Of a stretch of 37,847 nucleotides of DNA, positions 1,440-35,246 are shown one piece after another. The stretch is from assembly GCA_025456225.1 (NCBI GenBank), contig JALOLB010000015.1, forward strand, positions 1 through 37,847, given 5' to 3'. Source of the DNA: Thermoanaerobaculaceae bacterium (GTDB lineage: Bacteria > Acidobacteriota > Thermoanaerobaculia > Thermoanaerobaculales > Thermoanaerobaculaceae). Positions within the stretch are counted from its first letter, which is position 1. Each line of letters starts with the position of its first letter. The notes under the pieces were generated by a model. That model was not told the DNA's origin. It made no database searches and saw only the letters and a program-made list of their open reading frames with translations. Both the position numbers and the translations under genes were made by a program.

Positions 1440-1667
1440 ATGAAGAGCGTACTTCGCCACGTCGCGGGCTGGGGCTTCCTGTTCCTGGGAGTCGCCGGGC
1501 TTTTCCTCCCTGTCCTCCAGGGGTGGCTGTTCATCGGCCTCGGCGCCCTGCTCCTGTCGCCCGACGTGCTGTTCTTCCGGCGGCTCCTGGAGTGGATCGA
1601 GCGCCGCTCTCCGATGCTCAAGCGTGCCATCCGCACGCTCCAGAAGAAGCTCCGCCTGCATCACTGA
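1440..1667 (+). CDS. small two-TM membrane protein, PGPGW-like
   Basis: MKSVLRHVAGWGFLFLGVAGLFLPVLQGWLFIGLGALLLSPDVLFFRRLLEWIERR...; hydrophobic hairpin plus basic tail. Confidence 0.65.
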   Translation: MKSVLRHVAGWGFLFLGVAGLFLPVLQGWLFIGLGALLLSPDVLFFRRLLEWIERRSPMLKRAIRTLQKKLRLHH

Positions 1668-1782
1668 TCGCAGCGGATCAGCGAATCAGCGGATCAGCAC
1701 CTCAGCAGATCGGGCGTCCTGGCAGACCGGTGCCCGCCGGGGGCCGTCTCTGCTGACATGCTGATTCGCTGATGCGCTGAAT
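1665..1782. repeat. rhyming-repeat locus A: 8-bp word GCGGATCA tandem, with inverted arms 1678-1699 / 1759-1780
   Basis: Arm TCAGCGAATCAGCGGATCAGCA versus TGCTGATTCGCTGATGCGCTGA is complementary at 20/22; begins at the TGA stop of the upstream gene. Confidence 0.85.
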
Positions 1783-1802
1783 TGCTGGGAGGTGGCTGGG
1801 GG

Positions 1803-2273
1803 TCAGGTGGGTTCAGTGGGTCGAGTCAGGGGAGCGGGGCGTCCGAGGAGGGCCTCGATCTGGGCGCGGCGGGGGACGAGGATCAGCATGCCGAGTGTCG
1901 CGGCCCCCAGGAACAGCCAGAACCAGTCCCGACGGGACGAGACGAAGACGAGGACCAGGCCGAGCACGCCGACAGCCTCCACCTGCGCGAGAGCCACGAC
2001 GAAGGCGGCCTGATGGATGCGCAGCACCGGCTCGACGGCGGCGCTGGCGCCGTCCCGGGTTGCGCGGGCGAGCATGAGCTTGAACACCGGCATCACGGTC
2101 AGGAGGTCGATGGCCGCAACGAGGCCCAGGGCCCAGAGGAGGGGGGCGTGCCGGTCGGCTGGGGCCTCCGCGGGCGCAGGCAGAGCGAACGCCAGGGCGG
2201 CGTAGGTCCCGAGGCTGACGAGAAATGCGACCCACAGGATGCGCAGGGTCCGGAGGTGCTGGTCGATACTCAC
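1803..2273 (-). CDS. integral membrane protein, about 4 TM, unknown function
   Basis: GTG start; VSIDQHLRTLRILWVAFLVSLGTYAALAFALP...LLWALGLVAAIDLLTVMPVF. Confidence 0.6.
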   Translation of the reverse strand: MSIDQHLRTLRILWVAFLVSLGTYAALAFALPAPAEAPADRHAPLLWALGLVAAIDLLTVMPVFKLMLARATRDGASAAVEPVLRIHQAAFVVALAQVEAVGVLGLVLVFVSSRRDWFWLFLGAATLGMLILVPRRAQIEALLGRPAPLTRPTEPT

Positions 2274-2337
2274 GGGCTCCCCCTGTCCGCCCAGCCCGGG
2301 CCATCCGGGGGCCGGAGCCGGGCGCGGTGCCAGTCGC

Positions 2338-3282
2338 TCACAGCCCGGACGCGATGGCGTCGACGACGGCGATGGCGGCGGACAGGGCGGCCGTGCCCGC
2401 GGTGCCGTCCACGAAGGCGCCGGCCTCCCCGTGGCAGGCGCGCTGGAACGACAGGTGCTCGGCGGCCAGCGGCTCGGCCTTGTCGAAGGCGATGTCCACT
2501 GGCTCGATCTGCGCCTGGGCGCCACCCCGCACCAGGCGGTAGGACGAGACGGCCTGCTCGGCGTAGTCGATGGAGAAGTAGGCATCAGGCTCGAAGAGGC
2601 GCAGCTTGCGCACCCGCTCCGAGGAGACCCGGCTCGCGGTCAGGTTGGCGACGCACCCGTTGGTGAACTGCACACGGACGTTGCAGAGGTCCACCTTGCC
2701 GGTCAGGACCGGCACCCCGACCGCCCGCACCTCGCGGATCGGGGCGTGCTGGTTGAGTGCCTGCACGATCTGCAGGTCGTGCACCATGAGGTCCACCACC
2801 ACGTCGATGTCGAGGGAGCGCGCGGTGAACGGGGACAGGCGCTGGGCTTCCAGGTAGCGCGGCCGTGGCTGGCGAGCCAGCACCGCCTGCACCGCCGGGT
2901 TGAAGAACTCCACGTGCCCGACTCCCAGCACCACTCCGGCACGCCTGGCCTCCGCCACCATCTGCTCACCTTCGGCCACCGTCGCGGCGATCGGCTTCTC
3001 CACCATGACGTGCCGGCCGGCCCGCAGGCAGGCCAGGGCCAGCTCGCAGTGGGTGACCGTCGGCGAGGCGATGACCACCGCCTGGGACCTCTCGATGGCC
3101 TCCTCGATGCTGGCCAGGGGTGTGGCCCCGTGCTCGCCGCAGACCGTCTCGAGGCGCTGCCGGTCGGGGTCCCAGGCGCCGACGCACGACCAGCCTGGAA
3201 GAGTGCGGGCCAGCCGCACGTGATGCCGGCCCAGGTGGCCGACACCGAGGACACTGACATGGAGGGGGCTCCGCTCGCTCAT
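2338..3282 (-). CDS. Gfo/Idh/MocA family oxidoreductase
   Basis: SVLGVGHLGRHHVRLARTLPG Rossmann start, ASPTVTHCELALACLRAGRHVMVEKPIA. Confidence 0.9.
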   Translation of the reverse strand: MSERSPLHVSVLGVGHLGRHHVRLARTLPGWSCVGAWDPDRQRLETVCGEHGATPLASIEEAIERSQAVVIASPTVTHCELALACLRAGRHVMVEKPIAATVAEGEQMVAEARRAGVVLGVGHVEFFNPAVQAVLARQPRPRYLEAQRLSPFTARSLDIDVVVDLMVHDLQIVQALNQHAPIREVRAVGVPVLTGKVDLCNVRVQFTNGCVANLTASRVSSERVRKLRLFEPDAYFSIDYAEQAVSSYRLVRGGAQAQIEPVDIAFDKAEPLAAEHLSFQRACHGEAGAFVDGTAGTAALSAAIAVVDAIASGL

Positions 3283-3391
3283 GGGGAGGGAGCTTAGCGG
3301 CACCGGGGGCCAGCGGCAAGACCGCCCCTGGCCTGCTGGCGGGGAAGGACATCCTGGCTTGCGCTATACTTCGCCCAGCTTGCGGTGTTGG

Positions 3392-3397
3392 TAGGAG
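3392..3397 (+). promoter_or_regulatory. ribosome binding site AGGAGG
   Basis: AGGAGG just upstream of ATG 3404; TATACT (-10-like) at 3365-3370. Confidence 0.6.
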
Positions 3398-3403
3398 GAC
3401 AGA

Positions 3404-5689
3404 ATGAGCAGCGTTGCCCGGGCAGGCAAGAAGAGCGGGAAGGGTGCCGGAGTCACGACCTTCTCGTCGGCATTCGCAGTGTTCACTCACATGGAGATCG
3501 GGCAGCCCCTGGACGTGGCGGGCGAGCTGGAGCTGCGGGGGCTCGTGGCCGAAGGCGACCACGGCTGCGTGCTCAAGGTCCTCCACAAGCCCAGCAACAC
3601 GTTACGGGCGCTCAAGATGATGCACCCCGAGCTGGTTGCGACGGACGTCGCCCAGCGGCTCTTCGAGGAGGAGCTGGAGAAGCTGGCCGGGGTGGCCGGC
3701 GAGTTCGCGGTGAAGGTCTTCGACATGGGGCCCGTTGCCGTGCTGGGCCAGGCGCTGCCCTGGTGGGCCGTGGCCATGGAGTGGGTGGAGGGACGGAGCC
3801 TCCGGGACCTCGTCTCGGGCTCCCGCTTCTCGCAGCAGCTCTCGTTCGAGCGCTACGTGGACCGCAGCGGTCAGGACGAGGATGTGAGCGGCTCGGGACT
3901 GGCTCCCGAGGAGGCGCTCCGATTCCTGGAGCAGGCGGCCAACGGCGTGGCGGAGCTGCATCGGGCCGGGCTGTGCCACCTCGACGTGCGTCTCGACCAC
4001 CTCCTGCTGGGCAAGGGCAACGCCGTGCGCCTGGTGGGGTTCGGGCTCGGCCCGGAGCTGCGTCGCAGTGCCCAGGAGCTGCTGGGCGTGCGGTGGCAGA
4101 CCTCGCCCTACGCCGCCCCGGAGCTGCTCCGGGGGGACTGGGCGGTGCTCGGGCCGCGGGCCGACGTCTACCAGCTCGCGCTCCTCGCCTACGAGCTCTT
4201 CCGGGGCACCATCTGCTCGCCCTGGGTCGGCTACGAGGAGCTGTGCGAGAGCGCCGACTTCCTGCCCGCCGCCATGGACGAGCTGTTGCAGGACTGTCTG
4301 GGCGACCCGGAGCACCGTCCGGACGACGCCGACGCGTTCCTGGTGCGCCTGCGCGTGGTCGCGGCGCAGTTCGACGAGAACCAGCGCAAGGGTCGCACCC
4401 GTCCCGACCGCAAGGCCAAGGAGATCTGGCAGCGCGCCCAGGGCATGGCCCAGCGGGACATGCCCCAGTGGAGCTACGTCGCCGGAATGTGCCAGCGCCT
4501 GCTCGAGGAGAAGCCGCACCTGCTGCCGTTCGGCAAGATCCCGGTCAAGCAGGTGGACGAGCTGCTGGCGCAGGCCCAGTCCCACCTGCAGACCCGGAGA
4601 CGGGACATGCTCGACGAGCTGCTGGTCCGCCAGGCGTGGGACCAGGCAGCGGCGTTCCTGGAGAGGCTGGGTGGCGAGGTCGCCACCGACGAGGTGGACG
4701 AGCTCAAGCTGGGCTTGGAGCTCGCCCAGGCGGCACTCCACAAGGGCGACCCGGAGGCCCGCGCCCTGGCCCACCAGCGGATCATGGAGCTCCTCAAGGA
4801 GCCCCGCCTCTCGCCGGCAGTGCGGAACCGGGCGGCCTCGGCCCTCGAGATGCTCATGGCGGAGGGACGCTCCGAGCCCGACGCGCCGGGTGCGACCCTG
4901 CCACCTCCCGTGACGGCGGCGATCCCGGTGGCGCCTCCACTGGAGCCCGTGGTGGTCGTGCCGCCGGTCAGCGTGTCCCAGACCCCGGCGGCCCATGAGC
5001 CGGCCCTGCCGATCCCGGTCATGACCGACATGGGCGTGCTGGCGCCGGTCGAGCGCTTCCAGGTGGAGAGCGCCCACGAGACAACGAGCTGGCGGGTCGT
5101 CGTGGGCCCCGCGGTGCGGTTCGGGCGCGGTTCGTTCGAGGAGTTCGGGAACCACCTGGATCTTCGGCCGACACGTCGAGAAGCCGCTGAGAGCTCCATC
5201 ACCCTGGCGCTGGCCCAGCGGCTCAGCCGTGCTGGCCACATGGAGTTCCGGGTCGCCCCGGAGGGGCTGGAAGCCTTCTGCATGGGAACCCACGGCGCCG
5301 CCATGGACGGTAAGGTGCTCAAGCGGGGCGAGCGGACCGAGCTCGGCGAGGAGGGCCGCTGCCTCCTGGCCCAGGGAGCCGCGGAGTTCGTCTACAAGCT
5401 GTGGCGAGGCCGTGACGGCACGCCTCAGGCGGTGGAGTTCACCTTCACGGCGGGGGTGGGCGCCGGCCGACACGCGGTATGGGTGCTGTCGAGCCTTCCA
5501 CTCCAGGTGTTGGCGGCAGGGACCTCCGCCAAGGCGATCAGCGTCCCGACCCCGCAGGGGTGGATGGTCGAGGCCCGGAGCGAGGGCCTGAGCCTGGAGG
5601 GGCAGGACCTGCCGAGAGGGACGCGCCTGCCGTGGCCCGCGGACGCGGTGGTCGACCTGCCCGAAGGAACCCGCATCGTCCATGGCTGA
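3404..5689 (+). CDS. protein kinase-like (predicted pseudokinase) with C-terminal FHA-like region
   Basis: ALKMMHPEL lysine present; HRDxxxxN replaced by HLDVRLDH; DFG replaced by GFG; C-terminal VRFGRGSFEEFGNHLDLRP...LSRAGHMEFRV...GTHGAAMDGKVLKRGERTEL resembles FHA. Confidence 0.8.
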   Translation: MSSVARAGKKSGKGAGVTTFSSAFAVFTHMEIGQPLDVAGELELRGLVAEGDHGCVLKVLHKPSNTLRALKMMHPELVATDVAQRLFEEELEKLAGVAGEFAVKVFDMGPVAVLGQALPWWAVAMEWVEGRSLRDLVSGSRFSQQLSFERYVDRSGQDEDVSGSGLAPEEALRFLEQAANGVAELHRAGLCHLDVRLDHLLLGKGNAVRLVGFGLGPELRRSAQELLGVRWQTSPYAAPELLRGDWAVLGPRADVYQLALLAYELFRGTICSPWVGYEELCESADFLPAAMDELLQDCLGDPEHRPDDADAFLVRLRVVAAQFDENQRKGRTRPDRKAKEIWQRAQGMAQRDMPQWSYVAGMCQRLLEEKPHLLPFGKIPVKQVDELLAQAQSHLQTRRRDMLDELLVRQAWDQAAAFLERLGGEVATDEVDELKLGLELAQAALHKGDPEARALAHQRIMELLKEPRLSPAVRNRAASALEMLMAEGRSEPDAPGATLPPPVTAAIPVAPPLEPVVVVPPVSVSQTPAAHEPALPIPVMTDMGVLAPVERFQVESAHETTSWRVVVGPAVRFGRGSFEEFGNHLDLRPTRREAAESSITLALAQRLSRAGHMEFRVAPEGLEAFCMGTHGAAMDGKVLKRGERTELGEEGRCLLAQGAAEFVYKLWRGRDGTPQAVEFTFTAGVGAGRHAVWVLSSLPLQVLAAGTSAKAISVPTPQGWMVEARSEGLSLEGQDLPRGTRLPWPADAVVDLPEGTRIVHG

Positions 5690-6611
5690 TGCCTTCCCTG
5701 CGCGCCGCCCTCTCGCCGTCCTCCTGGCAGTGGCGCAGGTCGTGCTGGCCCTCGGCGGCTGCGTGTCGGTGAAGACCACGGCCACACGCCCCAGCGAGGG
5801 CCCGGGCGGCGGGCTCGCAGTCAAGGTCTTCTCCGACGACAGCGCGCGCCGCGGAAACCAGGTCGGTCCCATGGGGATCGTCGGGGAGCTGGAGCGCCAG
5901 GACGGCAAGGCCTGGCGCCCGGTCTTCCGCTCGCTGAACCCGAGCTGGGTGGTGGTGGGGCTTCCGCCAGGCTCCTACCGGGTGAGCTTCCGCGCCCGCC
6001 TCACGGATGCCGGTGACGTCGAGAGACTGGAGAAGCCGGTCCAGGAGACCTTCAAGGTGAAGCAGGGGAAGATGACCGACGTCCAGGTCACCCTCTCGCA
6101 CATCTCGCCCGCCCTCGTGGTCATTGCCGTGGTGACCGTGGTCGTCGCGGCCGTCCTGATCGCGGACTACCTCTCCGACCACGACCTCCCCGAGCCGCCA
6201 CTGCCGCCACCGGAGCTCGTTGACGTGGTGTTCCACATCTCCCTGGACCTGGCCACGGCGGCCGCCTGGGGCGGGGTGTGGGATCGCAGTGCACCCACGG
6301 TGACCTCCCACTTCCCGGCTGCAGGGGCGCTGGTCGCCGCGCGCCGGCCCAAGGTGATCTACTGTCTGTCCAAGCCGGTCCAGCCCTCCGAGGTCGAGGC
6401 GCAGGGCGTCTCGGTGCTGGGCGAGAGCTCCGGGCTCATCGAGGGGGTCGTGAGCTACGACACGACCAACTGGTGGGTCGTGTGGACACCCAGCCAGGAC
6501 CTGCCTCCGGGCGACACCTACCACGTGACCATGGCCGGCGACGCCGTCGAGGACCAGGCCGGCAACGAGCCCGGCAGGGCGTTCTCCTTCTCGTTCAAGA
6601 CCGCGCGCTGA
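5682..6611 (+). CDS. lipoprotein-like protein with TM segment and C-terminal bacterial Ig-like (SbsA/Big_5-type) domain
   Basis: LLAVAQVVLALGGC lipobox; VTSHFPAAGALVAARRPKVIYCLSKPVQP...YHVTMAGDAVEDQAGNEPG; overlaps the upstream stop. Confidence 0.65.
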   Translation: MADAFPARRPLAVLLAVAQVVLALGGCVSVKTTATRPSEGPGGGLAVKVFSDDSARRGNQVGPMGIVGELERQDGKAWRPVFRSLNPSWVVVGLPPGSYRVSFRARLTDAGDVERLEKPVQETFKVKQGKMTDVQVTLSHISPALVVIAVVTVVVAAVLIADYLSDHDLPEPPLPPPELVDVVFHISLDLATAAAWGGVWDRSAPTVTSHFPAAGALVAARRPKVIYCLSKPVQPSEVEAQGVSVLGESSGLIEGVVSYDTTNWWVVWTPSQDLPPGDTYHVTMAGDAVEDQAGNEPGRAFSFSFKTAR

Positions 6612-6626
6612 CCGCGCCCCCACCCG

Positions 6627-6794
6627 GGCCTCAGGCCTCAGACCTCAGGGAAGACAGGCCTCAGGCCTCAGACCTCAGGCCTCAGGAACGATAGGAGTGG
6701 CAGGTGAGGGAGGGGGAGCTGAGGCCCGAGGCCTGAGGTCTGGGTGGCTGGGTGGGGGGCTGAGGCCTGTTTGTGCTGAGGCCTGAGGCCGGGC
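6627..6794. repeat. rhyming-repeat locus B: 7-bp word CCTCAGG/CCTCAGA
   Basis: Exact 23-nt direct repeat GGCCTCAGGCCTCAGACCTCAGG at 6627-6649 and 6657-6679; perfect 15-bp inverted repeat 6669-6683 / 6728-6742; further GAGGCCTGAGGC words to about 6790. Confidence 0.88.
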
Positions 6795-7669
6795 GGAGGG
6801 GTGGGCCGCGCGGCAAGCTGGGGGTCGCCTTCGACTACGGGCTGATCGTCCTCGGGTCACTGATCGTGGCGGTCGGCACCAACATGTTCTTCGTGCCCAA
6901 CAACGTGGTGTCGGGCGGTGTGGTCGGCGTCTCGATCATCTTCCACCGTGTCCTGCACAGTCCGGTCGGGCTGGTGACGCTCGGGCTCAACCTGCCGCTC
7001 CTCTGGCTGGGCTGGCGGTACGCGGGCGGCATGCGCTTCTTCGTGCGCACCGCGGTGGCAGTGGTCACCATGTCCCTGGCGATCGACCTCACCGCCCCGT
7101 TCATCTCGCCCCCGACCCAGGACCGACTGCTGGTGATCTGCTACGGAGGCTTGCTCGACGGGCTGGGCATGGGCCTGGTGTTCCGGGGACGGGGTACAAC
7201 TGGCGGCACCGACGTGCTGGCGAGGCTGGCTCACCGCTTCCTGGGAATCGGCGTGGGGCAGGCCCTGTTGGGCATCAACGTGATGATCTTCGCGGTGGCC
7301 GCCTTCATCTTTGGGGCGGAAGCCGTGATGGTCGCTCTGGCGCTTGCCTTCGTCTCGGCCCGGGTGCTGGACCTCGTCCAGGAGGGCTTCTCGGCGGCCC
7401 GCGCGGCGGTCATCATCAGCGAGCAGCCCGAGAGGGTGAAGCAGGCGGTGCTGCAACGGCTCGGGCGGGGCGTGACGGTGCTGCACGGGCAGGGCGGCTT
7501 CACGGGGCAGGACCGGCCGGTGCTGTACGTGGTCCTGGCCACCCACGAGGTCGGTAGGCTCAAGCGGTTGGTGGCCGAGGTGGACCGGCACGCATTCGTG
7601 GCGATCACCCCGGCCCAGGAAGTGCTGGGCGAGGGGTTTGCACCCCACGCGGGCGAGGAGGCGGTGTGA
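6773..7669 (+). CDS. YitT/DUF2179-type membrane protein
   Basis: YGLIVLGSLIVAVGTNMFFVPNNVVSGGVVGVSIIF...FRGRGTTGGTDVLARL...VIISEQPERVKQAVLQRLGRGVTVLHGQGGFTG; GTG start within repeat locus B. Confidence 0.88.
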   Translation: MLRPEAGRRGGPRGKLGVAFDYGLIVLGSLIVAVGTNMFFVPNNVVSGGVVGVSIIFHRVLHSPVGLVTLGLNLPLLWLGWRYAGGMRFFVRTAVAVVTMSLAIDLTAPFISPPTQDRLLVICYGGLLDGLGMGLVFRGRGTTGGTDVLARLAHRFLGIGVGQALLGINVMIFAVAAFIFGAEAVMVALALAFVSARVLDLVQEGFSAARAAVIISEQPERVKQAVLQRLGRGVTVLHGQGGFTGQDRPVLYVVLATHEVGRLKRLVAEVDRHAFVAITPAQEVLGEGFAPHAGEEAV

Positions 7670-8460
7670 TGAAGACATGGCAGTGCTGGGTCCTGGCGGT
7701 GGTGGTGACCCTCGGATCTGCACTCTGGCAGCGCATGAGCGGTCCCACGTACCCGGTGAGAGCCAGGGTGGAGATCGCGGGAGAGACCTCGAAGACCCGG
7801 TTGCTGCGCAGTGGTACGACCGGGGAAGACCTGCCGCTCCGGATCCGTGCGCACCCGTCGGTGACCGGCGAGGTGGCCTGGCGGCGCTTCCCCACCAACG
7901 ATGTGTGGCAGGTGATCCGCATGGAACGACAGGGAGACGAGCTGGTGGCCGCGCTCGCCAGTCAACCGGCCGCCGGCAAGATCGAGTACCAGGTCATGCT
8001 CCGCTCGGGCGAGCAGGTGCTCGCGCTCCCGGACCGGCCGGCGGTTGCCCGGTTCAAGAACCACGTGCCGGAGCTCGTGCTCATCCCCCACATCCTGGCG
8101 ATGTTCCTGGGCATGCTGTTCGCTTCGAGGGCTGGGCTCGAGGCGGCGGTGGGGAGGCCTCGCCTGGCACCGTTGTCGTGGACCGCGTTCGGCCTCATCC
8201 TGTTTGGCGGCTTCGTGCTTGGACCCGCGGTCCAGAAGTACGCGTTCGACGCCTGGTGGACCGGCGTGCCGTTCGGCTGGGACCTCACGGACAACAAGAC
8301 GCTGATCGCCGGTGTCGCCTGGGTCTTCGCCGTGTGGCAGCTCCGCGGCGGCCGCAAGGCGCGGACCGCGGTGCTCCTGGCTGCGCTCGCCACCCTCGTC
8401 GTCTTCGCCATTCCGCACTCGGTCTGGGGCTCCCAGATCGACTGGGGGAAGCCTCAGTGA
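7669..8460 (+). CDS. membrane protein of unknown function
   Basis: Start overlaps the YitT stop (TGATG); multiple TM segments; no family recognised. Confidence 0.7.
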   Translation: MKTWQCWVLAVVVTLGSALWQRMSGPTYPVRARVEIAGETSKTRLLRSGTTGEDLPLRIRAHPSVTGEVAWRRFPTNDVWQVIRMERQGDELVAALASQPAAGKIEYQVMLRSGEQVLALPDRPAVARFKNHVPELVLIPHILAMFLGMLFASRAGLEAAVGRPRLAPLSWTAFGLILFGGFVLGPAVQKYAFDAWWTGVPFGWDLTDNKTLIAGVAWVFAVWQLRGGRKARTAVLLAALATLVVFAIPHSVWGSQIDWGKPQ

Positions 8461-8549
8461 TCGGTGATCGGTGATCGGAGATCAGAGGTCTGGAATCCGA
8501 GGGCGACCCGCCTCCAACCACTGAGCACCGATCACCGACCACTGATCAC
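8457..8549. repeat. rhyming-repeat locus C: 7-bp word GTGATCG; inverted arms 8457-8478 / 8528-8549
   Basis: GTGATCGGTGATCGGTGATCGG versus CCGATCACCGACCACTGATCAC complementary at 20/22; stop codons of both convergent genes lie in the arms. Confidence 0.9.
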
Positions 8550-10606: not shown

Positions 10607-11211
10607 CGACGCCCCTCGTCGGTGGTGGCGGCGGCGATCCCGCCGGAAGGCAGGGAGCCCTGGATGGTTACAGGCACGGTGATCGGCCCGAGCCAGGTTC
10701 CCAGCCGCAGACGCGCGCGGATCCGGGCGGTGGGACGGTCGCCGGCGAGCACCTGCAGCACGGCGCCAACCAGGCGCGACGGCTCCAGGAGCGCCTGGAG
10801 CTCGAGGCTGGTCGTGCCGAATGCTCCCAGCCGTACCGGCACCTCGGGCTTCCACTCCCCCCGGTGGACCTCGACCGTGCCCACGCCCAGGGTGTACTGC
10901 AGCCCGTTCAGGCTGAAGGGGATCGGTGTGCGGTTCGTGACCTCGATCCGGACGGTTGCCAGGAGGCTCGCCTGCTCGCCGGCCGCCCGCGCGAGCTGCA
11001 GGTCGACGACCCGGGCCTCGGCAAGTCGCCCCGCCCAGTGGACCGCCCCCACACGCAGCAGCGCGGCGGTGAGGAGCAGGAAGCCCAGGAAGGCCGCGAG
11101 GCACCAGGACGTCCGGCACAGGACCCGGTCCAGCTTCGGGTTGGAGAGCGTGTCGGGCGATGCCTGCGGGGCGGCGCTACCTTCGGCCTCCACCTCGCCC
11201 GGATCGCTCAC
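10603..11211 (-). CDS. membrane-anchored WHy/LEA14-like protein
   Basis: GTG at 11211; TM WCLAAFLGFLLLTAALL then VRIEVTNRTPIPFSLNGLQYTLGVG...VEVHRGEWKPEVPVRLGAFGTTSLELQ; overlaps neighbours by 4 nt at both ends. Confidence 0.65.
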   Translation of the reverse strand: MSDPGEVEAEGSAAPQASPDTLSNPKLDRVLCRTSWCLAAFLGFLLLTAALLRVGAVHWAGRLAEARVVDLQLARAAGEQASLLATVRIEVTNRTPIPFSLNGLQYTLGVGTVEVHRGEWKPEVPVRLGAFGTTSLELQALLEPSRLVGAVLQVLAGDRPTARIRARLRLGTWLGPITVPVTIQGSLPSGGIAAATTDEGRR

Positions 11212-12482: not shown

Positions 12483-12541
12483 CGCGACCCACCCGGACGA
12501 GAATGGAGCGTGAAGGGACCTGTCCGACGCATGGTGTCGAC

Positions 12542-12583
12542 ATTGTAGCCCGACAGGCTCCGCGACGCGCGGGCAGGTATACT
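12542..12583. promoter_or_regulatory. candidate divergent promoter pair
   Basis: TACAAT (minus, 12547-12542) and TATACT (plus, 12578-12583) facing away from each other between divergent PP2C and kinase genes; -35 elements not obvious. Confidence 0.4.
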
Positions 12584-12662
12584 CCCGGGGTCTGATGCGA
12601 CGCTCATGCTGTGGCTCCCAGGCGAGTCGGCGGACCGGTGAGACCGTCCCCCGGGCGGAGTC

Positions 12663-19277: not shown

Positions 19278-19543
19278 CTCACAGCGTGTGAGGAAATCGC
19301 CAGCGAGCGATTGGTCAGCCGGTGAAGGTCCTCACGGCGTCAACCTGGACGTGGACGTGGTCGTGGACGTGGACCCGGTTTCGTGCGTCGGGACGCTGTG
19401 AGGCATTCAGTAGTTGCATCAGGTGTTTCGGTGACGGCCTTGCGGTGAACGTCAGGTTCGCAGCACATCTGTCCACGTCCACGTTGCCAGCGGGCACGAT
19501 CGGCGCCCCGAACGTCCTCGCGGCATGGGTTCACACCCTCTCA
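19278..19543. repeat. rhyming-repeat locus D: 6-bp word GGACGT tandem with distal inverted copy; possible non-autonomous element
   Basis: GGACGT/GGACGT/GGTCGT/GGACGT/GGACCC at 19347-19376; perfect 13-bp inverted match 19362-19374 / 19471-19483; 63-nt block 19481-19543 shared with 29169-29231; CTCACAGCGTGTGAG palindrome at 19278-19292. Outer limits are inferred. Confidence 0.6.
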
Positions 19544-20011
19544 GCTCGCGTCCCTGGCAGGTAGGCACTCGAGGTGGGATCGAAACGTCTCGTTGAACAG
19601 CGCTCCGGGCCGTCGCGCCTGCAGGCGGGCCACGGCGTCCTTCCCGGACATGCCCAGCTCGACCAGCACCAGGCCCGCCACCAGCGCCGAGCGGTTGAAC
19701 CCCATCCCGCAGTGGCTCAGCACCCGGTGGCCGTCCCGCACCAGGCCGGCGGCCAGGCTCGCGACGGCGCGCAGCTTGGCAAGGTCCGGGAGATCCTCGT
19801 CCAGGATTGGGAAGTAGACGTAGAGAACCTGGTTCGGCACCGTCGGCACGCCGATGTCGAGGCCTCCCTCGAGGTCGATGACGACGTCGATTCCCCGGGC
19901 AGCGACCGGTCCCCATGCGTGGATGGCGGGGGAGATGAAGAGGGTCTCGTGGTCGTCCACGGGGACCGGGCCCCCCAGAACCTTGCAGACCTCAAGCTCG
20001 ATCGTGCTCAT
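19541..20011 (-). CDS. dual-specificity/tyrosine phosphatase-like protein
   Basis: VLSHCGMGFNRSALVAGLVL (HCx5RS); WPD-type region not assessed. Confidence 0.85.
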   Translation of the reverse strand: MSTIELEVCKVLGGPVPVDDHETLFISPAIHAWGPVAARGIDVVIDLEGGLDIGVPTVPNQVLYVYFPILDEDLPDLAKLRAVASLAAGLVRDGHRVLSHCGMGFNRSALVAGLVLVELGMSGKDAVARLQARRPGALFNETFRSHLECLPARDAS

Positions 20012-20069
20012 GTCACCCCACAACCCGGGATGTGGCCGTTCCAGTCCACCCCCCGGTGCCGGAAATGGA

Positions 20070-20097
20070 AGGGACGGGAGCCGGAGCTCCCGTCCCT
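20070..20097 (-). terminator. hairpin AGGGACGGGAG-CCGGAG-CTCCCGTCCCT
   Basis: Perfect 11-bp stem, 6-nt loop, downstream of the M35 gene. Confidence 0.65.
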
Positions 20098-20117
20098 GGT
20101 GAGGCGGCAGCCGCAGC

Positions 20118-21203
20118 CTACGGCTGGTCCTCGGCGAAGTACTCGTGGTTGTCGGCGTTGTTGATGGCCTTGCTGGGGCTCGTCTTGGCGAGGTTCTTGG
20201 CGCCCGTGGCCCCGTACACGTAGTCCTTGGTTCCGGCCACGACGGTGAAGTGGCTGGTCTCGTGGACCAGGGTGCCGGCCTTCGAGTCGCGACCGGTCGC
20301 GGGGGCGGACCAGAAGGCTCTACACAGGTAGACCTTGTAGGGCTGGCTGGGGTAGACGTACGCGTAGGCGCTCTCGGTGCACGAGCAGTCGAAGGTGAAC
20401 GTCTTGCTCGCGAAGGTGCTCTTGAGGTTCGTGAAGTGCGACTTCACGGTGCTGAAGCGGCTGGAGTTGTACGTCCCGAACCAGGTCGTGTAGAGCGTCG
20501 AGCCGGTCGGGTAGCTCACCAGGTGGTTGTAGGACTTGGTGCACATCGTCCCGGCGTTGGCGTGGGCGGTCTGGAGCGCGGTCTTCTGGGAGTTGGAGCA
20601 GGACGTGTAGCCGCCGATCCCGGTGATCCCCATCGCGAAGTCCTCTTCGGGCACCGGGACCTGCAGCTCACGGCCCTCGACGAACAGCGAGATCTGGTTC
20701 GACGAGACGATGCCGAGCTCCTCGCCCTGGACCACCGCCTGGGTTTCCATCGCGAACGGGTCGGCGGGGCTCTCGTCGAGGACCGCGCGGTAGCGGATCG
20801 AGTAGTTGCCGGTCACGGACATGTCGTACACCGAGGACAGGTCGATGACAGCCGAGACCGTCTCGCCCGCGCCGATCTCGACGTAGTCGCTCTCGGTCGG
20901 GGCGGCCCACTTCACGAGGCGTCCGGTGTAGGCGACGGGCTCGCCATCCCGGGTGACCACGAAGAGGTCGTTGCTGACGCCCCGCAGTGGCGTGAGCCAG
21001 TGCAGCACTCGCACGCTCGCCTCGCTCCGGTTGGTGAGGGCGAAGGTCACGGCCACCTCGTCGGTCATCGTGAACGATGCCTGGTCTACCTCGATGCTGC
21101 TGCTCAGGGCCGGTCCTTGGGTCGCTCCCGCGAACGCCTGCGCGCCGGCCAGCAACGCAGCCGTCACCACTGCCAACACCACCAACTTCACGCTGTGCTT
21201 CAT
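20118..21203 (-). CDS. secreted M35/LysN-type aspzincin metalloendopeptidase
   Basis: Signal peptide; HETSHF (HExxH) followed by GTKDYVYG (GTxDxxYG); NADNHEYFAE; SD AGGAGG upstream of ATG. Confidence 0.85.
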   Translation of the reverse strand: MKHSVKLVVLAVVTAALLAGAQAFAGATQGPALSSSIEVDQASFTMTDEVAVTFALTNRSEASVRVLHWLTPLRGVSNDLFVVTRDGEPVAYTGRLVKWAAPTESDYVEIGAGETVSAVIDLSSVYDMSVTGNYSIRYRAVLDESPADPFAMETQAVVQGEELGIVSSNQISLFVEGRELQVPVPEEDFAMGITGIGGYTSCSNSQKTALQTAHANAGTMCTKSYNHLVSYPTGSTLYTTWFGTYNSSRFSTVKSHFTNLKSTFASKTFTFDCSCTESAYAYVYPSQPYKVYLCRAFWSAPATGRDSKAGTLVHETSHFTVVAGTKDYVYGATGAKNLAKTSPSKAINNADNHEYFAEDQP

Positions 21204-21432
21204 GATCCCTCCTCCTGTCAAACGTGCCTGCACCCCTGGCAGGCCAACGGGTGTGCACCTCTTGGTTGGGCGTCAGGACGGGTCGCCACGTAAAGCTCGG
21301 GAGCTGTCCCGGGGCCGATTGCGCATCCCGCGTGGGACGGAATACTCACCTTCCGGGTTCCCTGGGAGCTCGTGGCCTCTCCCCCTTGCTCTGCTCCGGC
21401 GGTTGTTCCGCCGAACCGTGATCTTGGTGATC

Positions 21433-21461
21433 GTTCTAGAGGCGAATCGGGTCGTTGTCAA
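21433..21461 (-). promoter_or_regulatory. candidate sigma70 promoter TTGACA-N17-TAGAAC
   Basis: -35 at 21461-21456, spacer 21455-21439, -10 at 21438-21433; implies an about 220-nt 5' leader for the M35 gene. Confidence 0.55.
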
Positions 21462-21636
21462 GTGGTTGTTCGGATGTGGCGCCCTGATCCCCTGATTCGA
21501 CATCCGCGACTCGAGGTCCCGGTTCGGATTCGTCGCTTTGTCGGGTCGTGTCCGGTTCGCGCCGAAGATTCGTCACCCGGGCTCTTCCGGCCTGTCGAGC
21601 GCCCGGCGCGCCGCCGCGGCGCCCGCTCCGCGCGGG

Positions 21637-22948: not shown

Positions 22949-22949
22949 G

Positions 22950-29060: not shown

Positions 29061-29113
29061 GGCATTACCTTTGGACAGGGTAGCGCAGGTTTGGTTCCGC
29101 CGCCCCCGCCCGT

Positions 29114-29231
29114 CCGGTCGAGAGTCGCAAGAGGTCGAGAGTTGAGAGTCCAGAGGCGAGAGTCAGGAACGTGGCCATCGGTGACGATCGGCGCTGCAAA
29201 CGCCCTCGCACGGTCAGCTCACAACCTCTCA
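29114..29231. repeat. rhyming-repeat locus E: word GTCGAGA, followed by the 63-nt block shared with locus D
   Basis: GGTCGAGAGTCGCAAGAGGTCGAGAGTTGAGAGTCCAGAGGCGAGAGTC, then 29169-29231, 47/63 identical to 19481-19543 without gaps. Confidence 0.75.
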
Positions 29232-29367
29232 TGGGAAGCGGACCCGAGCCGGCCTGCCACGCGTGCGTCTCGCGCCGGCCGCCCGATGGCGGTCGGACTC
29301 GGCAGCGGGTGCTGGACGAAACCGGCGAGGAGAGCGGGCTATCATGCACGGCAGCGAGGAGGGCGTC

Positions 29368-30171
29368 ATGGAGCGAGTGGAGAGCGATCGGAGGAGTCTG
29401 CTGGGCGCGGTGGGGGGGATGCTCGGGTTGGTGGCGCTCGGTGAGCTGGGCTCGAGTGGCCTGGCCGAGGGGCAGGTGGCTGGCACAGGTCCAGGCGCCG
29501 ACGCCATGTCCCGCGTGCCGTGGCCGTACCGGCCGCTCGACGCCGACGGCGTGGGTCACGCGGCGTTCGTCGCCAACGGGCAGGGCGGCTGCATGTTCGG
29601 CGTCGTCGAGCCGATCGTCGGAGGTGTCGCCCGCCAGCTCGGGGCCCCATACACCTCGCTTCCCCTGGCGTTGTTCATGTACGGGTCGGCCGGTGTGGTC
29701 GGCTGGGGCAGTCTGTGCGGCGCGCTCAACGGTGCCGCCGCCGCGCTGGCACTGCTGTCGGCCCGGCCGCAACCGCTCATCTCCGAGCTCTATTCGTGGT
29801 ACGAGCGCGAGGCGCTGCCCGACTTCATGCCGAAGGGCGCCCGCTTCCCCAACGTGGCGTCGGTGGCCGGCTCGGTGCTGTGCCACGCCTCGCTCACCAG
29901 GTGGTGCAACGCCTCCGGCAAGAAGGTCGCCTCGCCCGAGCGGGCCGAGCGCTGCGGCGCGCTGGCCGCCTCGGTGGCGCGCAAGACGGTGCAGCTCCTC
30001 AACGCGCAGTCCGCCGGCAACCCCGCTGCGGGAGCGCCCGAGCCCGCGACCGCCGCGTGCCTGAGCTGCCACGGCACCCGCGGCACCGAGTGCGACGCCA
30101 GCGGCCGCATGCGCTGCGCCTCCTGCCACGCTCCGGCCGAGCTCAAGGCGGCCGGGCACCCGGCCACCTGA
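29368..30171 (+). CDS. Tat-exported C_GCAxxG_C_C-type protein with two C-terminal CxxCH haem motifs
   Basis: SDRRSLLGAVGGMLGLVAL; GGCMFGVVEPIVGGVARQLG...GSLCGALNGAAAALALL...LCHASLTRWC; CLSCHG and CASCHA. Confidence 0.75.
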   Translation: MERVESDRRSLLGAVGGMLGLVALGELGSSGLAEGQVAGTGPGADAMSRVPWPYRPLDADGVGHAAFVANGQGGCMFGVVEPIVGGVARQLGAPYTSLPLALFMYGSAGVVGWGSLCGALNGAAAALALLSARPQPLISELYSWYEREALPDFMPKGARFPNVASVAGSVLCHASLTRWCNASGKKVASPERAERCGALAASVARKTVQLLNAQSAGNPAAGAPEPATAACLSCHGTRGTECDASGRMRCASCHAPAELKAAGHPAT

Positions 30172-30185
30172 CCGGGAAACCGCAT

Positions 30186-30201
30186 CGCAAGGCGCCTTGC
30201 G
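30186..30201 (+). terminator. palindrome CGCAAGGCGCCTTGCG
   Basis: Perfect 16-nt palindrome 15 nt after the cytochrome-like gene stop. Confidence 0.4.
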
Positions 30202-30456
30202 CAGGTCTGCGGCCACGGAAGCAGGTCGAATCTCCGCTGGAGCGGGAAGCTGCGTGAAGGTGGGGCAGAAATCGCGGAAGCCAGCCTGCCGCGTCTGGTG
30301 GCACACAAAGGGCCTGCGCCATGGGGGCTGCAGGTCCGCCGTCAGCCCCGTGGCCTGACCGGCGAGGCAGCGTCCGCACCCACCTCCGTAGTCCAGGTAC
30401 GCACCTGCCAGGGCAACCCCCCTCGGTCCAGTCCATCGCCGCTGATGCTGCGTGGG

Positions 30457-31053
30457 TCAGATCTCGGCTCTCGTCGCCTCCGACCACTCCGCGGGGATCT
30501 CCGGGAGGGTGAGGCTCTGTAGGCCGGAGAGCTGCACCGCCAGGTGTCGGTATTCGGTTGTCAGGGATCCGAGCTCCGACTCCGAGACATGCAGGAGGTC
30601 GAGAAGATCGGCCTTCTTCTTGCCCTCCTGGCTCGTGAGGAAGGCGGCCTTGGCGCCGAACTCGTAGACACGCCTGAGGTGGGAGCCCTCGATTGTTGAC
30701 ACGAACCCCGAGTGGTCGGTGTCTGCTACCACCCGGAGACGACTCAGGACCGCTCGCTTCGTCCGCTCCCGGTCCGTTCGCAGCGCTTCGGGCTTCGGCG
30801 ACGAGGGACCTGGCAGCGGGCAAGAGTCCTCGCTGCTTCGGTAGTAGTTGCCGTAGGTTCGTCCACTCGGGTCCCTGGGAAACGTGAGGACCGTCTCGCC
30901 GACGAGAATGCCTGCGACCATCTCCAGCGAGTCGCTCGCCGACTCGGTGCACCCCGCCAGACGGATCTCCTCGAAGTAGGCAGCAAGGTCAGCGGGCACC
31001 GGCGTGGCCTGAGCAAGGACGAGAGTCGCCAGGAGGGTGGGCACGAGGGGCAT
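30457..31053 (-). CDS. secreted hypothetical protein with one EF-hand-like loop
   Basis: Signal peptide MPLVPTLLATLVLAQATPVPA; DTDHSGFVSTIE matches a 12-residue EF-hand loop. Confidence 0.65.
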   Translation of the reverse strand: MPLVPTLLATLVLAQATPVPADLAAYFEEIRLAGCTESASDSLEMVAGILVGETVLTFPRDPSGRTYGNYYRSSEDSCPLPGPSSPKPEALRTDRERTKRAVLSRLRVVADTDHSGFVSTIEGSHLRRVYEFGAKAAFLTSQEGKKKADLLDLLHVSESELGSLTTEYRHLAVQLSGLQSLTLPEIPAEWSEATRAEI

Positions 31054-31139
31054 GGGTGATCATCTCCTTCCCCCGTGTGTACGGATGGGGGAGTGACTTC
31101 GCCTGGATGCCTGTCGTGTCGACGGTGTGGGCGACAGGT

Positions 31140-32063
31140 CTAGCCGCTCCGGAAGACGTCGGTGTTGAGGTACTTCAGGCCGGAGTCGCAAAGGAGCGTG
31201 ACCACCGTGGCGCCCGGCCCCAGCCGCTCGGCGACCCGGATCGCGGCGACCACGTTGGCTCCGGACGATGTCCCGGCGAAGAGCGCTTCCTCCCGGGCGA
31301 GGCTGCGGGTCATCTCCTTCGCGTCGGCGGTCGCGACCGCCTCGACGCCGTCCGCGAGGCCCGGGTCCCAGAGCGGGGGAACGTACCCGACCCCGACGCC
31401 CTCGATCTTGTGCGGGCCCGGCTGACCCCCCAGCAGCACCGACGACTCGGCGGGCTCGACGGCGATGAGCCGGATGCCCGGCCGGTGCCGTTTGAGAGCG
31501 GTGGCGACGCCGCGCGACGAGGCCCCCGTGCCCACGCAGTGGACGAAGGCGTCGACCTTGCCCTCCGTCTGGCTCCAGATCTCCTCGCCCAGCGCGTGGT
31601 AGCCGGCGATGCTGTCATGGTTCCTGAGCTGGTCGGTCCAGAACGTGTGCGGCTCCCGGCTCAGCTCCCGCGCGGCCTCGATCATGTCAAGGATCAGCTT
31701 CTTCGTGGTGAGCCCTCCCTCGCTCGGGACGAGCGTGAGCTCCGCCCCCAGCGCCGCCATCTGGTCGCGCTTCTCCCGGGCGAACGCGTCGGACGTGACG
31801 ATCCGGAGCCGGTACCCCCTGGCGGCGCAGACCAGCGCCAGCGACGCCCCGGTGCTGCCGCCCGTGTACTCGACGACGGTGTCCCCGGGCCGCAGCCGGC
31901 CGTCCTCCTCCGCTTGCGAGATCACGGCGAGCGCCATGCGGTCCTTCATGCTACCGGTGGGGTTCTCCCACTCCAGCTTCACGAGGACGTCCGCACACCC
32001 GGGCGGCACGACCTTACGAAGCCGAACCATCGACGTCTTGCCGATCGCATCGTGAATGTCCAT
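31140..32063 (-). CDS. PLP-dependent cysteine synthase family protein
   Basis: IGKTSMVRLRKVVPPGCADVLVKLEWENPTGSMKDRMA; EYTGGSTGASLALVCAARGY; GTSSGANVVAAIRVAERL. Confidence 0.92.
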   Translation of the reverse strand: MDIHDAIGKTSMVRLRKVVPPGCADVLVKLEWENPTGSMKDRMALAVISQAEEDGRLRPGDTVVEYTGGSTGASLALVCAARGYRLRIVTSDAFAREKRDQMAALGAELTLVPSEGGLTTKKLILDMIEAARELSREPHTFWTDQLRNHDSIAGYHALGEEIWSQTEGKVDAFVHCVGTGASSRGVATALKRHRPGIRLIAVEPAESSVLLGGQPGPHKIEGVGVGYVPPLWDPGLADGVEAVATADAKEMTRSLAREEALFAGTSSGANVVAAIRVAERLGPGATVVTLLCDSGLKYLNTDVFRSG

Positions 32064-32141
32064 CGGGCGGTTCCTTCCTCTGGTGACCGCTTCCATCGAC
32101 ATGCCCGGCTTGTCGAGCACGTGCACGACGGTCTCCAGCGG

Positions 32142-32654
32142 TCAGGGTAGCGCAGGCGGGAAGAGGGCGTGCGCGGTCTCGCTCATGGGCGCGACCTGGT
32201 CGTCGGGCACGCGCAGCCAGACGCGCTCGAGCGACGACGGCTCGGCCCCGGCGAGGACGTCGCCCAGGAGAGACACGAAGCGCTCGGGGTCGAATCGCCC
32301 ATGCACCGCGCCGAGCAGCGGCAGCGAGAGCGAGCGGAGCTGCAGCCGGCGGGCGATGCGGAGCACACCATCCAGGGCCTGGATCACCCACTCCTCCCGC
32401 CAGGTGGGCGTGCACGAGAGGTCATGCACGACGGCGAGCAGGCACTTCGGCTTGCCTCGGCGCAGGGCGACGCTGCCCGGGGGAAGTGGATGAGCCCGCC
32501 GCACCAGCTCGATCGCGGCTTCGAGGCTGCCGCCGGTCGACTCGATGTGCGCCTCAGCGGTGAGCACAAGGTAGGTGTCCTCCTCCTCGACGAGAGCATC
32601 GAGGGCGATGGGCGTCACACCTTCCGGCACCACGAGCACTTCGACCATTGCCAC
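32142..32654 (-). CDS. divergent macro-domain-like protein
   Basis: CLLAVVHDLSCTPTWREEWVIQALDGVLRIARRLQLRSLSLPLLGAVHGRFDPERF resembles the C-terminal half of macro domains. Confidence 0.45.
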   Translation of the reverse strand: MAMVEVLVVPEGVTPIALDALVEEEDTYLVLTAEAHIESTGGSLEAAIELVRRAHPLPPGSVALRRGKPKCLLAVVHDLSCTPTWREEWVIQALDGVLRIARRLQLRSLSLPLLGAVHGRFDPERFVSLLGDVLAGAEPSSLERVWLRVPDDQVAPMSETAHALFPPALP

Positions 32655-32817
32655 CTACCTCGGTCCCTCCCAGGTGCTCCCCAGTATGCGCCGTCTGTTG
32701 GGTGGCGAGGCACTCTTGTCGATCAGTCCACGGGGTCACGGACCGCGGGCCTCCAGGCCCGCTCTTCGTCTCTGCCAACCCGGGGAGCAGGGCTGGAGCC
32801 CCGGGCCCGTCGGTGGG

Positions 32818-34245
32818 TCAGCTCCCGACGGCCGTCTCGTCGTCGCGGACGCGGGGGGCCATCGTGAGGCCGGTGAAGCCGAACAGCACGAGGATCAGCA
32901 CCGACAACCAGCTCATGAGCGCCCAGGGCGCGTAGGCGACGGTGGGCACGCCGATCGTGCCGGTGATGTAGACCGATGCCATGCTCCACGGGACGAGCGG
33001 CACGATGGTCCCGCCTGACTCGATGACGAGGCGCGAGAGGTTCTTGGCGGCCAGCTTGCGGGCGCGGAACGCGGGGGCCAGCAGCTCGCCGGGCACCAGC
33101 ACCGAGAGGTACGAGCTGCCGGTGACCAGCGCCGTGAGGATGCAGGAGCCGACGGTCGTGAGGACGAGCGTCCCGGTGCGCCGCGCCAGGCGCAGGACCC
33201 GCTGCAGCAGCACGTCCAGGAGCCCGGCCTTCTGCATGATGCCGCCGAAGGAGAAGGCGGCGAAGGCGATGAGCTGGGTCTCCATCATGCTCATGAGGCC
33301 GCCCCGGGCGAGCAGCCGATCCACCTCGGGGACGCCGGTGGCCGGCTTGAAGCCGGTGTTGAGCGCCTGGGCCAGGGTCACGAGGGACTGCTTCTGGTAG
33401 AGCAAGGCCAGCACGAGCGCCACGACCACCGAGAGCAGCATGCCGGGGATCACCGGCTTCTTCGCGAACGCGAAGGCGAAGACGACGAGCATCGGGAGCA
33501 GCAGCACCGGGCTGAACGTGAACGCCTGGCCGAGGGTGACGCGGATGGTGTCGACGCTGCCGCCTGCCAGCCCCGTGCCTCCGTACCGCAGGCCGATCAC
33601 CAGGTAGAACCCCAGCCCCAGCAGCCACGCCGGCCCGGCCGACCAGACCATGTGGCGGAGCGTGTCGTAGAGGTTGGCCCCGGTGGCGGCGGGCGCGAGG
33701 TTCGGGATGTCGGAGAACGGCGACATCTTGTCGCCGAAGTAGGCCCCGGCCACGATCGCTCCGGCGGCTGGCCCGAGCGGGATTCCCTGGGCCTGGGCGA
33801 TGCCGATGAACGCCACGCCCAGGGTGCCGATGGTGCCCCAGGAGGTGCCCGTGGCGAGCGCCGTGACCGAGCACACGAGGCAGGCCGTGGCGAGGAAGAA
33901 CCGCGGCGAGATCAGGCCGAGCCCCCAGGACATGACCATCGGGATGGTGCCGCAGGCGATCCAGGAGGCCACGAGCAGCCCGACGCACAGCATGATGAGG
34001 ATGGCCGGCAGCGCCTTGCGGATGCTGTCGACGATGCCCTGCTGCATCTCGTCCCACGAGAGGCCCACGGCCCAGGCCGTGAGCCCGGTGATGACCGCCG
34101 CGGCGATGAGCAGCACCTGGGCCTTGATGGCGTACACGCCGTAGCCGATGCCCAGCAGCAGGCCCATCGCCACGAGCGGCACGAGCGCCACCCACACGGA
34201 CGGCGCCTTCCTTGCTTTGGCCTGCTGGGGACTCGGGTCGGGCAT
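32818..34245 (-). CDS. nhaC: Na+/H+ antiporter NhaC family
   Basis: GTSWGTIGTLGVAFIGIAQ, GAIVAGAYFGDKMSPFSDIPNLAPAATG. Confidence 0.9.
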   Translation of the reverse strand: MPDPSPQQAKARKAPSVWVALVPLVAMGLLLGIGYGVYAIKAQVLLIAAAVITGLTAWAVGLSWDEMQQGIVDSIRKALPAILIMLCVGLLVASWIACGTIPMVMSWGLGLISPRFFLATACLVCSVTALATGTSWGTIGTLGVAFIGIAQAQGIPLGPAAGAIVAGAYFGDKMSPFSDIPNLAPAATGANLYDTLRHMVWSAGPAWLLGLGFYLVIGLRYGGTGLAGGSVDTIRVTLGQAFTFSPVLLLPMLVVFAFAFAKKPVIPGMLLSVVVALVLALLYQKQSLVTLAQALNTGFKPATGVPEVDRLLARGGLMSMMETQLIAFAAFSFGGIMQKAGLLDVLLQRVLRLARRTGTLVLTTVGSCILTALVTGSSYLSVLVPGELLAPAFRARKLAAKNLSRLVIESGGTIVPLVPWSMASVYITGTIGVPTVAYAPWALMSWLSVLILVLFGFTGLTMAPRVRDDETAVGS

Positions 34246-34346
34246 GTGCACCCCCTGGGTGATGGAGAGACTACACGACGCAGGCGAGACGCGTGCCTTC
34301 GTGATCGCGCCACGCGGTGGCGCGGCGGCGCACTGGGTGCGCCGAT

Positions 34347-34438
34347 GCGCCGCCCGGAGGTCGGCGCCCACCTCTCGGACCTTGGTAGCAGGGCCGAAAC
34401 AGGCGGGCGCAAGGTGGGCGCGGACCTCCGGGCCGCGC
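34347..34438 (-). promoter_or_regulatory. long hairpin between ppa and nhaC: arms 34347-34373 / 34412-34438, 38-nt loop
   Basis: 27-nt arms complementary at 25/27 (core 34352-34373 / 34412-34433 at 21/22). Confidence 0.7.
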
Positions 34439-34454
34439 CGGGTGGGCGGGGGAA

Positions 34455-34486
34455 AGCTCTTGACCTGCAGCTCTCAGCTCTCGACC
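34455..34486. repeat. rhyming-repeat locus F: word GTCGAGA/GCTGAGA (minus-strand reading)
   Basis: Minus strand reads GGTCGAGAGCTGAGAGCTGCAGGTCAAGAGCT; starts 7 nt past the ppa stop; shares words with locus E. Confidence 0.6.
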
Positions 34487-34493
34487 GGGTGGG

Positions 34494-35042
34494 CTACCCT
34501 CTTCGGTGCATGTACGCGAAGAGCTTGGCGTAGAGCTGCGCGCCGTGGGTGACGACCTTGCGGGCCTCCTCGGGGCCGAGGAACTCCTCGACCTTGACGT
34601 CCTTGTGCTCGAGGGTCTTGTAGTCCTCGAAGAAGCGCTTGACCTCGATCATGCGGTGGGGCTGCAGCTCGCTGATGTGGGTGAACTCCCGGTACTCCGG
34701 GTCGTCGAGGTGGACGCAGATGATCTTCTCGTCGTTCTCGCCCTGGTCCACCATGACCATGAGGCCGATCGGCCGCACCCGCAGGATCGACAGCGGCGCC
34801 ACCGGCTCCTGCATGAGCACCAGCACGTCGAGGGGGTCATGGTCGTCGCCGAGGGTCTGGGGGATGAACCCGTAGTTCGCCGGGTAGATGACCGAGGAGT
34901 ACAGCACCCGGTCGACGCGCAGGAGCCCTGTCTCCTTGTCGAGCTCGTACTTCACCTTGCTGCCCTTGGGGATCTCGATGACGGCCGGGAACTCGCCCGG
35001 GGCGTCGCTGCCGATCTCGACGTCGTGCCAGGGGTGGCTCAT
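34494..35042 (-). CDS. ppa: inorganic pyrophosphatase
   Basis: [51 protein letters not shown]. Confidence 0.96.
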
Positions 35043-35150
35043 GGCGTTCGCTCCAGTCGCCGGGCATGGTCCAACGCTCCCGGCCCGACACGATCCTACC
35101 GCACTTGCCTCCTCGGGGCGCCCGAACCCCACCCGTGCGGGTGGGGGAGC

Positions 35151-35246
35151 TGATCCGCTGACCACCTGATCTGCTGATCCCCCGATCCGCTGACCCCCTG
35201 ATTCGCTGACCTCCTGATCCCCTGGTCCCCTGTCTTGACCCCTCCC
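35151..35246. repeat. rhyming-repeat locus G: 16-bp tandem repeat, 5 copies plus a degenerate sixth
   Basis: TGATCCGCTGACCACC / TGATCTGCTGATCCCC / CGATCCGCTGACCCCC / TGATTCGCTGACCTCC / TGATCCCCTGGTCCCC / TGTCTTGACCCCTCCC. Confidence 0.93.

Follow-up and report, generated by a model that had tools for sequence, protein, structure and literature searches.

The DNA analysed here, a window of 37,847 nucleotides on contig JALOLB010000015.1 of a Thermoanaerobaculaceae bacterium, carries seven intergenic loci (A to G) built from short words repeated in tandem. These loci probably belong to a dispersed family that is related to the intervening sequence (IVS) of 23S rRNA but is spread genome-wide and includes derivatives without the S23 gene, a reading that takes in the copying steps proposed below. 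In this reading the parent form is a cassette of about 500-650 bp composed of tandem heptamers, a gene for an S23/IVP four-helix-bundle protein (TIGR02436/PF05635), and the heptamers again, reverse-complemented. This architecture is found at most S23 genes tested across bacteria, and at orthologous sites the elements are either present or cleanly absent. Arrays lacking S23 elsewhere in the same genome often have the cassette words, and in sister species different words occupy one orthologous site, with the arms complementary in each.

The host genome (G000, a metagenome-assembled genome of 4.88 Mb in 450 contigs, 82% complete) has a single confident PF05635 gene, found at L001 between a CAGGCCT array and a reverse-complement array, GCCTGAG. 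L001 and the other cassettes match both PF05635 and TIGR02436 above cut-off; loci A-G themselves carry no S23. Two sets of S23 genes were picked without regard to their flanks, 30 from the host's class and 80 from named genomes in more than 10 phyla, and paired arrays were called when the upstream flank matched the downstream one, inverted and without gaps, with a best score of at least 14. In the class, paired inverted arrays occur at 28 of 30 S23 genes versus none of 125 other genes and 41 of 870 mismatched flank pairs, the excess in the last figure arising, at least partly, because related loci share words. Across the more than 10 phyla they occur at 49 of 78 S23 genes, compared with 0 of 234 anchors at the same loci and 11 of 1170 mismatched flank pairs. 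These counts are raw, uncorrected for relatedness of the genes, and the broad set spans many phyla. A preliminary description of the window had suggested that similar repeats flank four-helix-bundle genes of the S23/IVS type in other genomes, and these counts bear it out. No report linking S23 genes to dispersed heptamer arrays was found among open-licence papers, and an earlier description is possible.

The cassettes share a design rather than a sequence. Among 77 of them the period is 7 or 14 in 57, and 50 of the 58 words scored are distinct. The 5' arm is rich in G and purines (AGT occurs in 40 left arms, ACT in 5), and the arms fold around the S23 open reading frame (ORF), with z scores of -6.9 for L001 and -8.8 for L140. 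A likeness to telomeric ends was considered and dropped, since arm composition suggests that the G-rich strand points inward, the reverse of the telomeric arrangement.

The S23 family is related to Avd, the homologous four-helix protein of diversity-generating retroelements (DGRs), as weak matches to the Avd model indicate. Among S23 homologues with known structures, 2gsc (Xanthomonas campestris) and 2rld were each deposited with five chains. Because of these five-chain structures and the kinship to Avd, nucleic-acid binding by S23 is plausible. The same kinship could point to a reverse transcriptase (RT) or DGR-like writer that makes the words, with S23 acting like Avd; the host has an avd-RT pair (L002), and words do differ between copies. 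Such a writer is very improbable; the preliminary description had named reverse transcriptase among the linked gene families to look for. Three genomes with S23 (G020, G012 and G058) have no match to PF00078, a model that could miss divergent RTs, and thus lack the DGR combination of RT and accessory four-helix protein; G013 and the sister species of the host (G001) encode an RT, with few arrays or none. Unlike in DGRs, neither an RT nor a template/variable repeat pair was seen with the S23 cassettes. On the co-occurrence of RT, S23 and arrays across genomes an RT was ruled out as a required writer, and the cassettes appear not to need one. Neither the avd-RT pair nor two weak PF05635 genes of the host have paired arrays at the cut-off of 14, and the trait therefore belongs, as far as tested, to the stand-alone S23 subfamily. 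In L002 itself (G000:C172:854-4144) a gene for an Avd-like four-helix protein and, immediately after it, one for a reverse transcriptase span about 1446-2750; the pair is probably a DGR core, and it has no heptamer arrays.

The IVS in the 23S rRNA of Coxiella burnetii has an S23p ORF, a 28-bp terminal stem and tandem GACAGAT heptamers whose copy number varies between strains, and it is excised by RNase III (PMC4990558). The likeness to the cassettes lies in an S23 ORF within about 430-650 bp, in termini that are complementary and pair as a long stem, and in tandem heptamers adjoining the ORF. The IVS lies in a host RNA transcript, whereas the present cassettes are outside rRNA, either between protein genes or within dnaE2. 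They also differ from the IVS in that their arms are arrays with a word that changes between copies, and in the hundreds of S23-less arrays scattered in the genome. By analogy with the Coxiella IVS, read-through transcription of a cassette would allow its arms to pair as a long stem cleavable by RNase III. If the cassette is cut from the mRNA in this way, its insertion after a stop codon would therefore be tolerable. S23, as a relative of Avd, may bind the arms and aid copying of the element, while S23-less derivatives would either move in trans or be relics.

Cassettes are mostly placed in sense with their surroundings. The upstream neighbour has the orientation of S23 in 60 cases versus 10, the downstream neighbour in 52 versus 10, and a need for read-through transcription may be a further cause of this. 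An upstream ORF of at least 100 codons is present for 68 of the 77 cassettes and ends within -12 to +30 nt of the array in 56 of those 68, its stop codon often being part of the first array unit. The cassettes examined follow protein genes (e.g., in an ABC-transporter operon, or a dnaE2-like gene); none of them was found in a ribosomal RNA gene. A stop trinucleotide stands in sense in 52 of the 77 left arms, where 34 would be expected from shuffled words. A heptamer bearing a stop closes all three frames, and this may make an insertion at the end of a gene easier to tolerate. A fixed TAG target is not claimed, since TAG shows only a moderate excess by arrays (21 of 34 gene ends versus 36 of 101 plain intergenic ones).

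Filled and empty versions of the same site have been found. For example, in family f6 the cassette lies between an ABC ATPase gene and its permease gene in several genera, and in G046, G047 and G048 the same two genes are adjacent with the cassette absent. The L155 cassette of G008 is absent in G010 and G013, where its flanks are 14 nt apart. Elsewhere in G008 about 45 places match the arms of this cassette; G010 has no such place.

The clearest case of one site with several words is L156, which lies inside a dnaE2-like gene (named from sequence motifs). In one loop of this gene G015 has a GGGGTCA cassette with S23, and at the same place there are arrays without S23 of GTGGTCC in G006, GGGGCTC in G012 and GTGGCCG in G016; G010, G013 and G003 have no such arrays in that loop. 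The flanks are 87-92% identical among the array-bearing species. Arm match scores are 20-25 within a species and 5-9 between species. The inserts that were checked, the whole S23 cassette included, leave the dnaE2 frame open (G016 gave no clear reading), and the S23 gene lies in another frame. G049 carries GGACTGA in its two arms at the ABC-transporter site, where most others have words of the GTGCTGA type. Word differences at one site may stem either from rewriting in place or from separate insertions at a hotspot. Turnover of the word might proceed by slippage, the 7-bp unit expanding and a hairpin letting one arm template the other; alternatively, the active S23 cassette of a genome could supply copies that overwrite the arms.

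Repetitive extragenic palindromic (REP) elements, with their associated RAYT transposases, and miniature inverted-repeat transposable elements (MITEs) are small, non-coding, inverted and dispersed, often at the 3' ends of genes. The short inverted arrays near gene ends resemble them in these respects, and an unrelated transposase (e.g., RAYT/Y1) might move the arrays with S23 as a passenger. This is highly unlikely: REP and MITE ends are fixed and conserved, as sites for transposase binding, whereas here the end sequence varies freely between copies and species and only complementarity is kept. The shared terminal inverted repeat of MITEs and insertion sequences is missing, most scored words being distinct and four of them occupying one site, and S23 is the gene that recurs inside the cassettes across phyla.

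Several side observations concern the dnaE2 locus. The sequences L370 2583-3123 (from G015), L371, L372, L374 and L377 present the dnaE2-like gene with different in-frame inserts at one loop, and in G015 the dnaE2 and S23 proteins would overlap in different frames. Downstream of the G015 cassette, L156 2607-2806 holds two further dispersed repeats, which match many places in all g6 genomes, the S23-less ones included.

Arrays without S23 are abundant in the host. Density and word sharing were compared on samples of 150-290 kb per genome, taken from draft genomes of which several are incomplete, and arrays were called on intergenic DNA at a k-mer array score of at least 16. In the host 33 of 150 intergenic regions reached that score where 0.43 would be expected (286-kb sample), as against 1 of 135 in a 234-kb sample of G001, the congeneric sister species (98% complete). 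Of 36 host array regions, 28 are two-armed with a hairpin stem. About seven word classes recur: CCTCAGG, GTCGARR, GTGRTCG, GTGGACG, GGGGTCC, GCTCAAG and GCGGATCA. The CCTCAGG dimer CCTCAGGCCTCAGR is present 421 times in the host and 0-1 times in each of 11 other genomes. Between tandem genes the array lies a median of 36 nt past the stop codon and 72 nt before the start codon, and it is nearer the stop in 14 of 21 pairs; 2 of 24 divergent intergenic regions have arrays (p = 0.10).

Contig C187 of the sister species is collinear with window positions 1-29138, and the arrays of loci A, B, C and D are absent at the orthologous sites. At the site of A the stop codon is shared, and another GC hairpin follows it. 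The site of C has CAGTGATCG at the left stop codon in G001 as well, though without the arrays, which suggests that a word may be copied from its target site; nothing of the kind was seen at A or B. An initial view of G001 as wholly without arrays was softened when a few GTCGAGA arrays were found there (e.g., G001:C15:1411-1457). Dimers of the GTCGA type number 5 in 233 kb of that genome and 60 in 286 kb of the host.

The interpretation in the preliminary description is partly supported. Genome-wide enrichment over expectation and absence of the dispersed arrays at orthologous sites were both confirmed, while proximity to stop codons stands only as a tendency. The idea that each locus has its own word fails, as a handful of words recur and are copied within the genome. 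The architecture is a trait of the family, and the changing word holds in another form, in that words differ at orthologous sites of close species with the arms matched.

Arrays are most frequent in genomes that have S23. Their density per Mb is 115 in the host, 29 in G008, 72 in G020, 81 in G038 and 12 in G003, which has two S23 genes, versus 4 in G001, 0 in G010 and 0 in G007, where no S23 was found. Repeated 7-mers of the resident S23 cassettes recur in 11 of 12 dispersed arrays in G038, 10 of 11 in G020 (the larger word sets of these two somewhat favour matches), 3 of 5 in G008 and 11 of 29 in the host. In G006 one word is common to the dnaE2 arrays and to L151, its S23 cassette. Cultured species behave similarly: the S23-arm word GGGGACC forms 20 dimers in Xanthomonas codiaei and 81 in Pseudoxanthomonas wuyuanensis, several of them in inverted pairs 100-220 nt apart. 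Ordinary simple-sequence repeats, growing by slippage in unconstrained intergenic DNA with fold-back copying of arms and no part for S23, are a poor prospect as an explanation. Slippage has been proposed for bacterial heptamer repeats (in the discussion of PMC4692102), copy number varies, and units do differ by point changes; however, slippage would account neither for complementary arrays around S23 genes, absent from all 125 and 234 control positions, nor for sense placement at stop codons, nor for the words shared with S23 cassettes. It also leaves unexplained why one genome should have hundreds of copies of a few words that do not recur in its relatives.

Other dispersed heptamers have been described in single genera. 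Xanthomonas GGGAATC and Nostoc GGGGA(C/T)T repeats are intergenic, imperfect, 2-26 units long and close to stop codons, with 70-75 inverted pairs per Xanthomonas genome; they are described as having one word per genus, and were studied as G-quadruplexes, generally not tied to mobile elements, with S23 unmentioned (PMC4692102). The S23 link reported here concerns GGGGACC in the two relatives named above, not GGGAATC. The TAACTGA repeats of Beggiatoaceae and cyanobacteria are dispersed intergenic arrays with related variants; they run as direct repeats, inverted pairs being almost absent, and mostly point to start codons, and no link to S23 was reported (PMC4679880). The host resembles genomes with short tandemly repeated repetitive (STRR) sequences in its dispersed intergenic heptamers, both in the share of regions affected and in the CCTCAGG dimers. 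It departs from the STRR pattern, a single word in direct repeats only, with its seven or so words and mostly two-armed regions.

Several points weigh against a family descended from S23 cassettes. About 37% of the broad-set S23 genes have no clear paired array, and the filled and empty sites are too diverged to define exact ends or a target duplication. The host shares words between only 11 of 29 arrays and the sole S23 cassette found, the remaining array words having no known S23 partner in this 82% complete assembly. G016 (74% complete) has dnaE2 arrays and G001, at 98% completeness, a few GTCGAGA arrays, with no S23 found in either. The reading is drawn from comparison of genome sequences, with mobility and the RNA steps inferred, and the Coxiella S23p appears to be unexpressed (PMC4990558).

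A bolder proposal, tentative and less probable than its negation, is that S23 cassettes form a mobile-element class of their own, with a rewritable heptamer word as ends in place of a fixed sequence. Copying into both arms and into scattered sites would depend on S23 and be free of RT, arrays would be overwritten together, and the dispersed bacterial heptamer repeats described earlier would be traces of the process. S23-type four-helix-bundle genes are common in bacteria, and no settled function is assigned to them in the papers found; their usual place between complementary arrays of a site-specific heptamer, at stop codons, with the words scattered through the genome, ties them to a defined element, with natural substrates and a role that can be tested. 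They also offer one possible origin for heptamer repeats until now described separately. Inverted ends that differ between copies and yet stay matched are unlike fixed transposon ends.

Within the window, all seven loci were found as first described, by direct reading, Tandem Repeats Finder and an inverted-repeat search. Loci A-D, to which no strand is assigned, are all two-armed. Locus A (1671-1787) is two-armed with an 8-nt word, GCGGATCA, in a left arm at 1671-1699 and a right arm at 1751-1779 (to about 1787); it begins 3 nt past the TGA stop (1665-1667) of the upstream gene. The two-armed locus B (6627-6796) has the 7-nt word CCTCAGG, the arm word of cassette L001. A YitT-family gene takes its predicted GTG start (6773) from the right arm. 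The two-armed locus C (8457-8549; arms 8457-8489 and 8517-8549) has the word GTGATCG, and the TGA stops of two convergent genes (8458-8460 and 8546-8548) both fall within array units. Locus D (19346-19486) has the 6-nt word GTGGAC/GTGGTC at 19346-19374 on the left and 19471-19486 on the right. The complementary arms of A, B, C and D are 29, 49, 35 and 16 nt long in the inverted-repeat search. Against 500 dinucleotide shuffles per locus, for which p = 0.002 is the floor, all four pass both tests, with p = 0.002 for tandem repetition and p <= 0.004 for inverted repeats. The other three are one-armed. Locus G (35149-35232, minus strand) is strongly tandem (p = 0.002), with about 10 units of TGATCCGC, the reverse complement of the locus A word, and a higher-order period of 16 nt. 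Loci E and F are short, differ from shuffled DNA only weakly in the tandem test (p = 0.03 and 0.012) and are unconvincing taken alone. E (29117-29164, plus strand) is a GTCGAGA array whose word is common elsewhere in the genome, with related sequence at other sites in G001; F (34468-34494, minus strand) reads GTCGAGA-GCTGAGA and sits 8 nt past the TAG stop of an inorganic pyrophosphatase gene.

Hairpin folding gives z scores of -7.3 for A, -3.5 for B, -6.9 for C and -1.8 for D, and the one-armed loci E-G fold no better than shuffles. Since A-C fold well at gene ends and between convergent genes, since pairing is kept while the word differs, and since the sister species has another hairpin after the same stop at A, the S23-less arrays might be bidirectional terminators or mRNA-stabilising hairpins under selection, with a word that drifts because only pairing matters. 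As a full account this is unlikely. No T-run follows in the sequence, the one-armed loci do not fit, most close relatives manage without arrays, and selection for pairing alone would not yield tandem unit identity or a shared vocabulary. A terminator or stabilising hairpin could be a secondary role of the arrays. An Rfam scan of the window gave zero matches.

Three features of the window adjoin these loci. At 6773-6830 the YitT-family gene has its predicted start and first residues inside the right arm of B, where the N-terminus of the G001 orthologue is unrelated. Next to D, at 19541-21600, about 2.4 kb is missing in G001, including an M35-type (aspzincin) metallopeptidase gene. Beside F, at 34347-34442, there is a strong GC-rich inverted repeat with 27-nt arms that are 93% complementary; a 30-nt piece of it (34413-34442) recurs at no fewer than five places in G001 and looks like another dispersed palindrome family.

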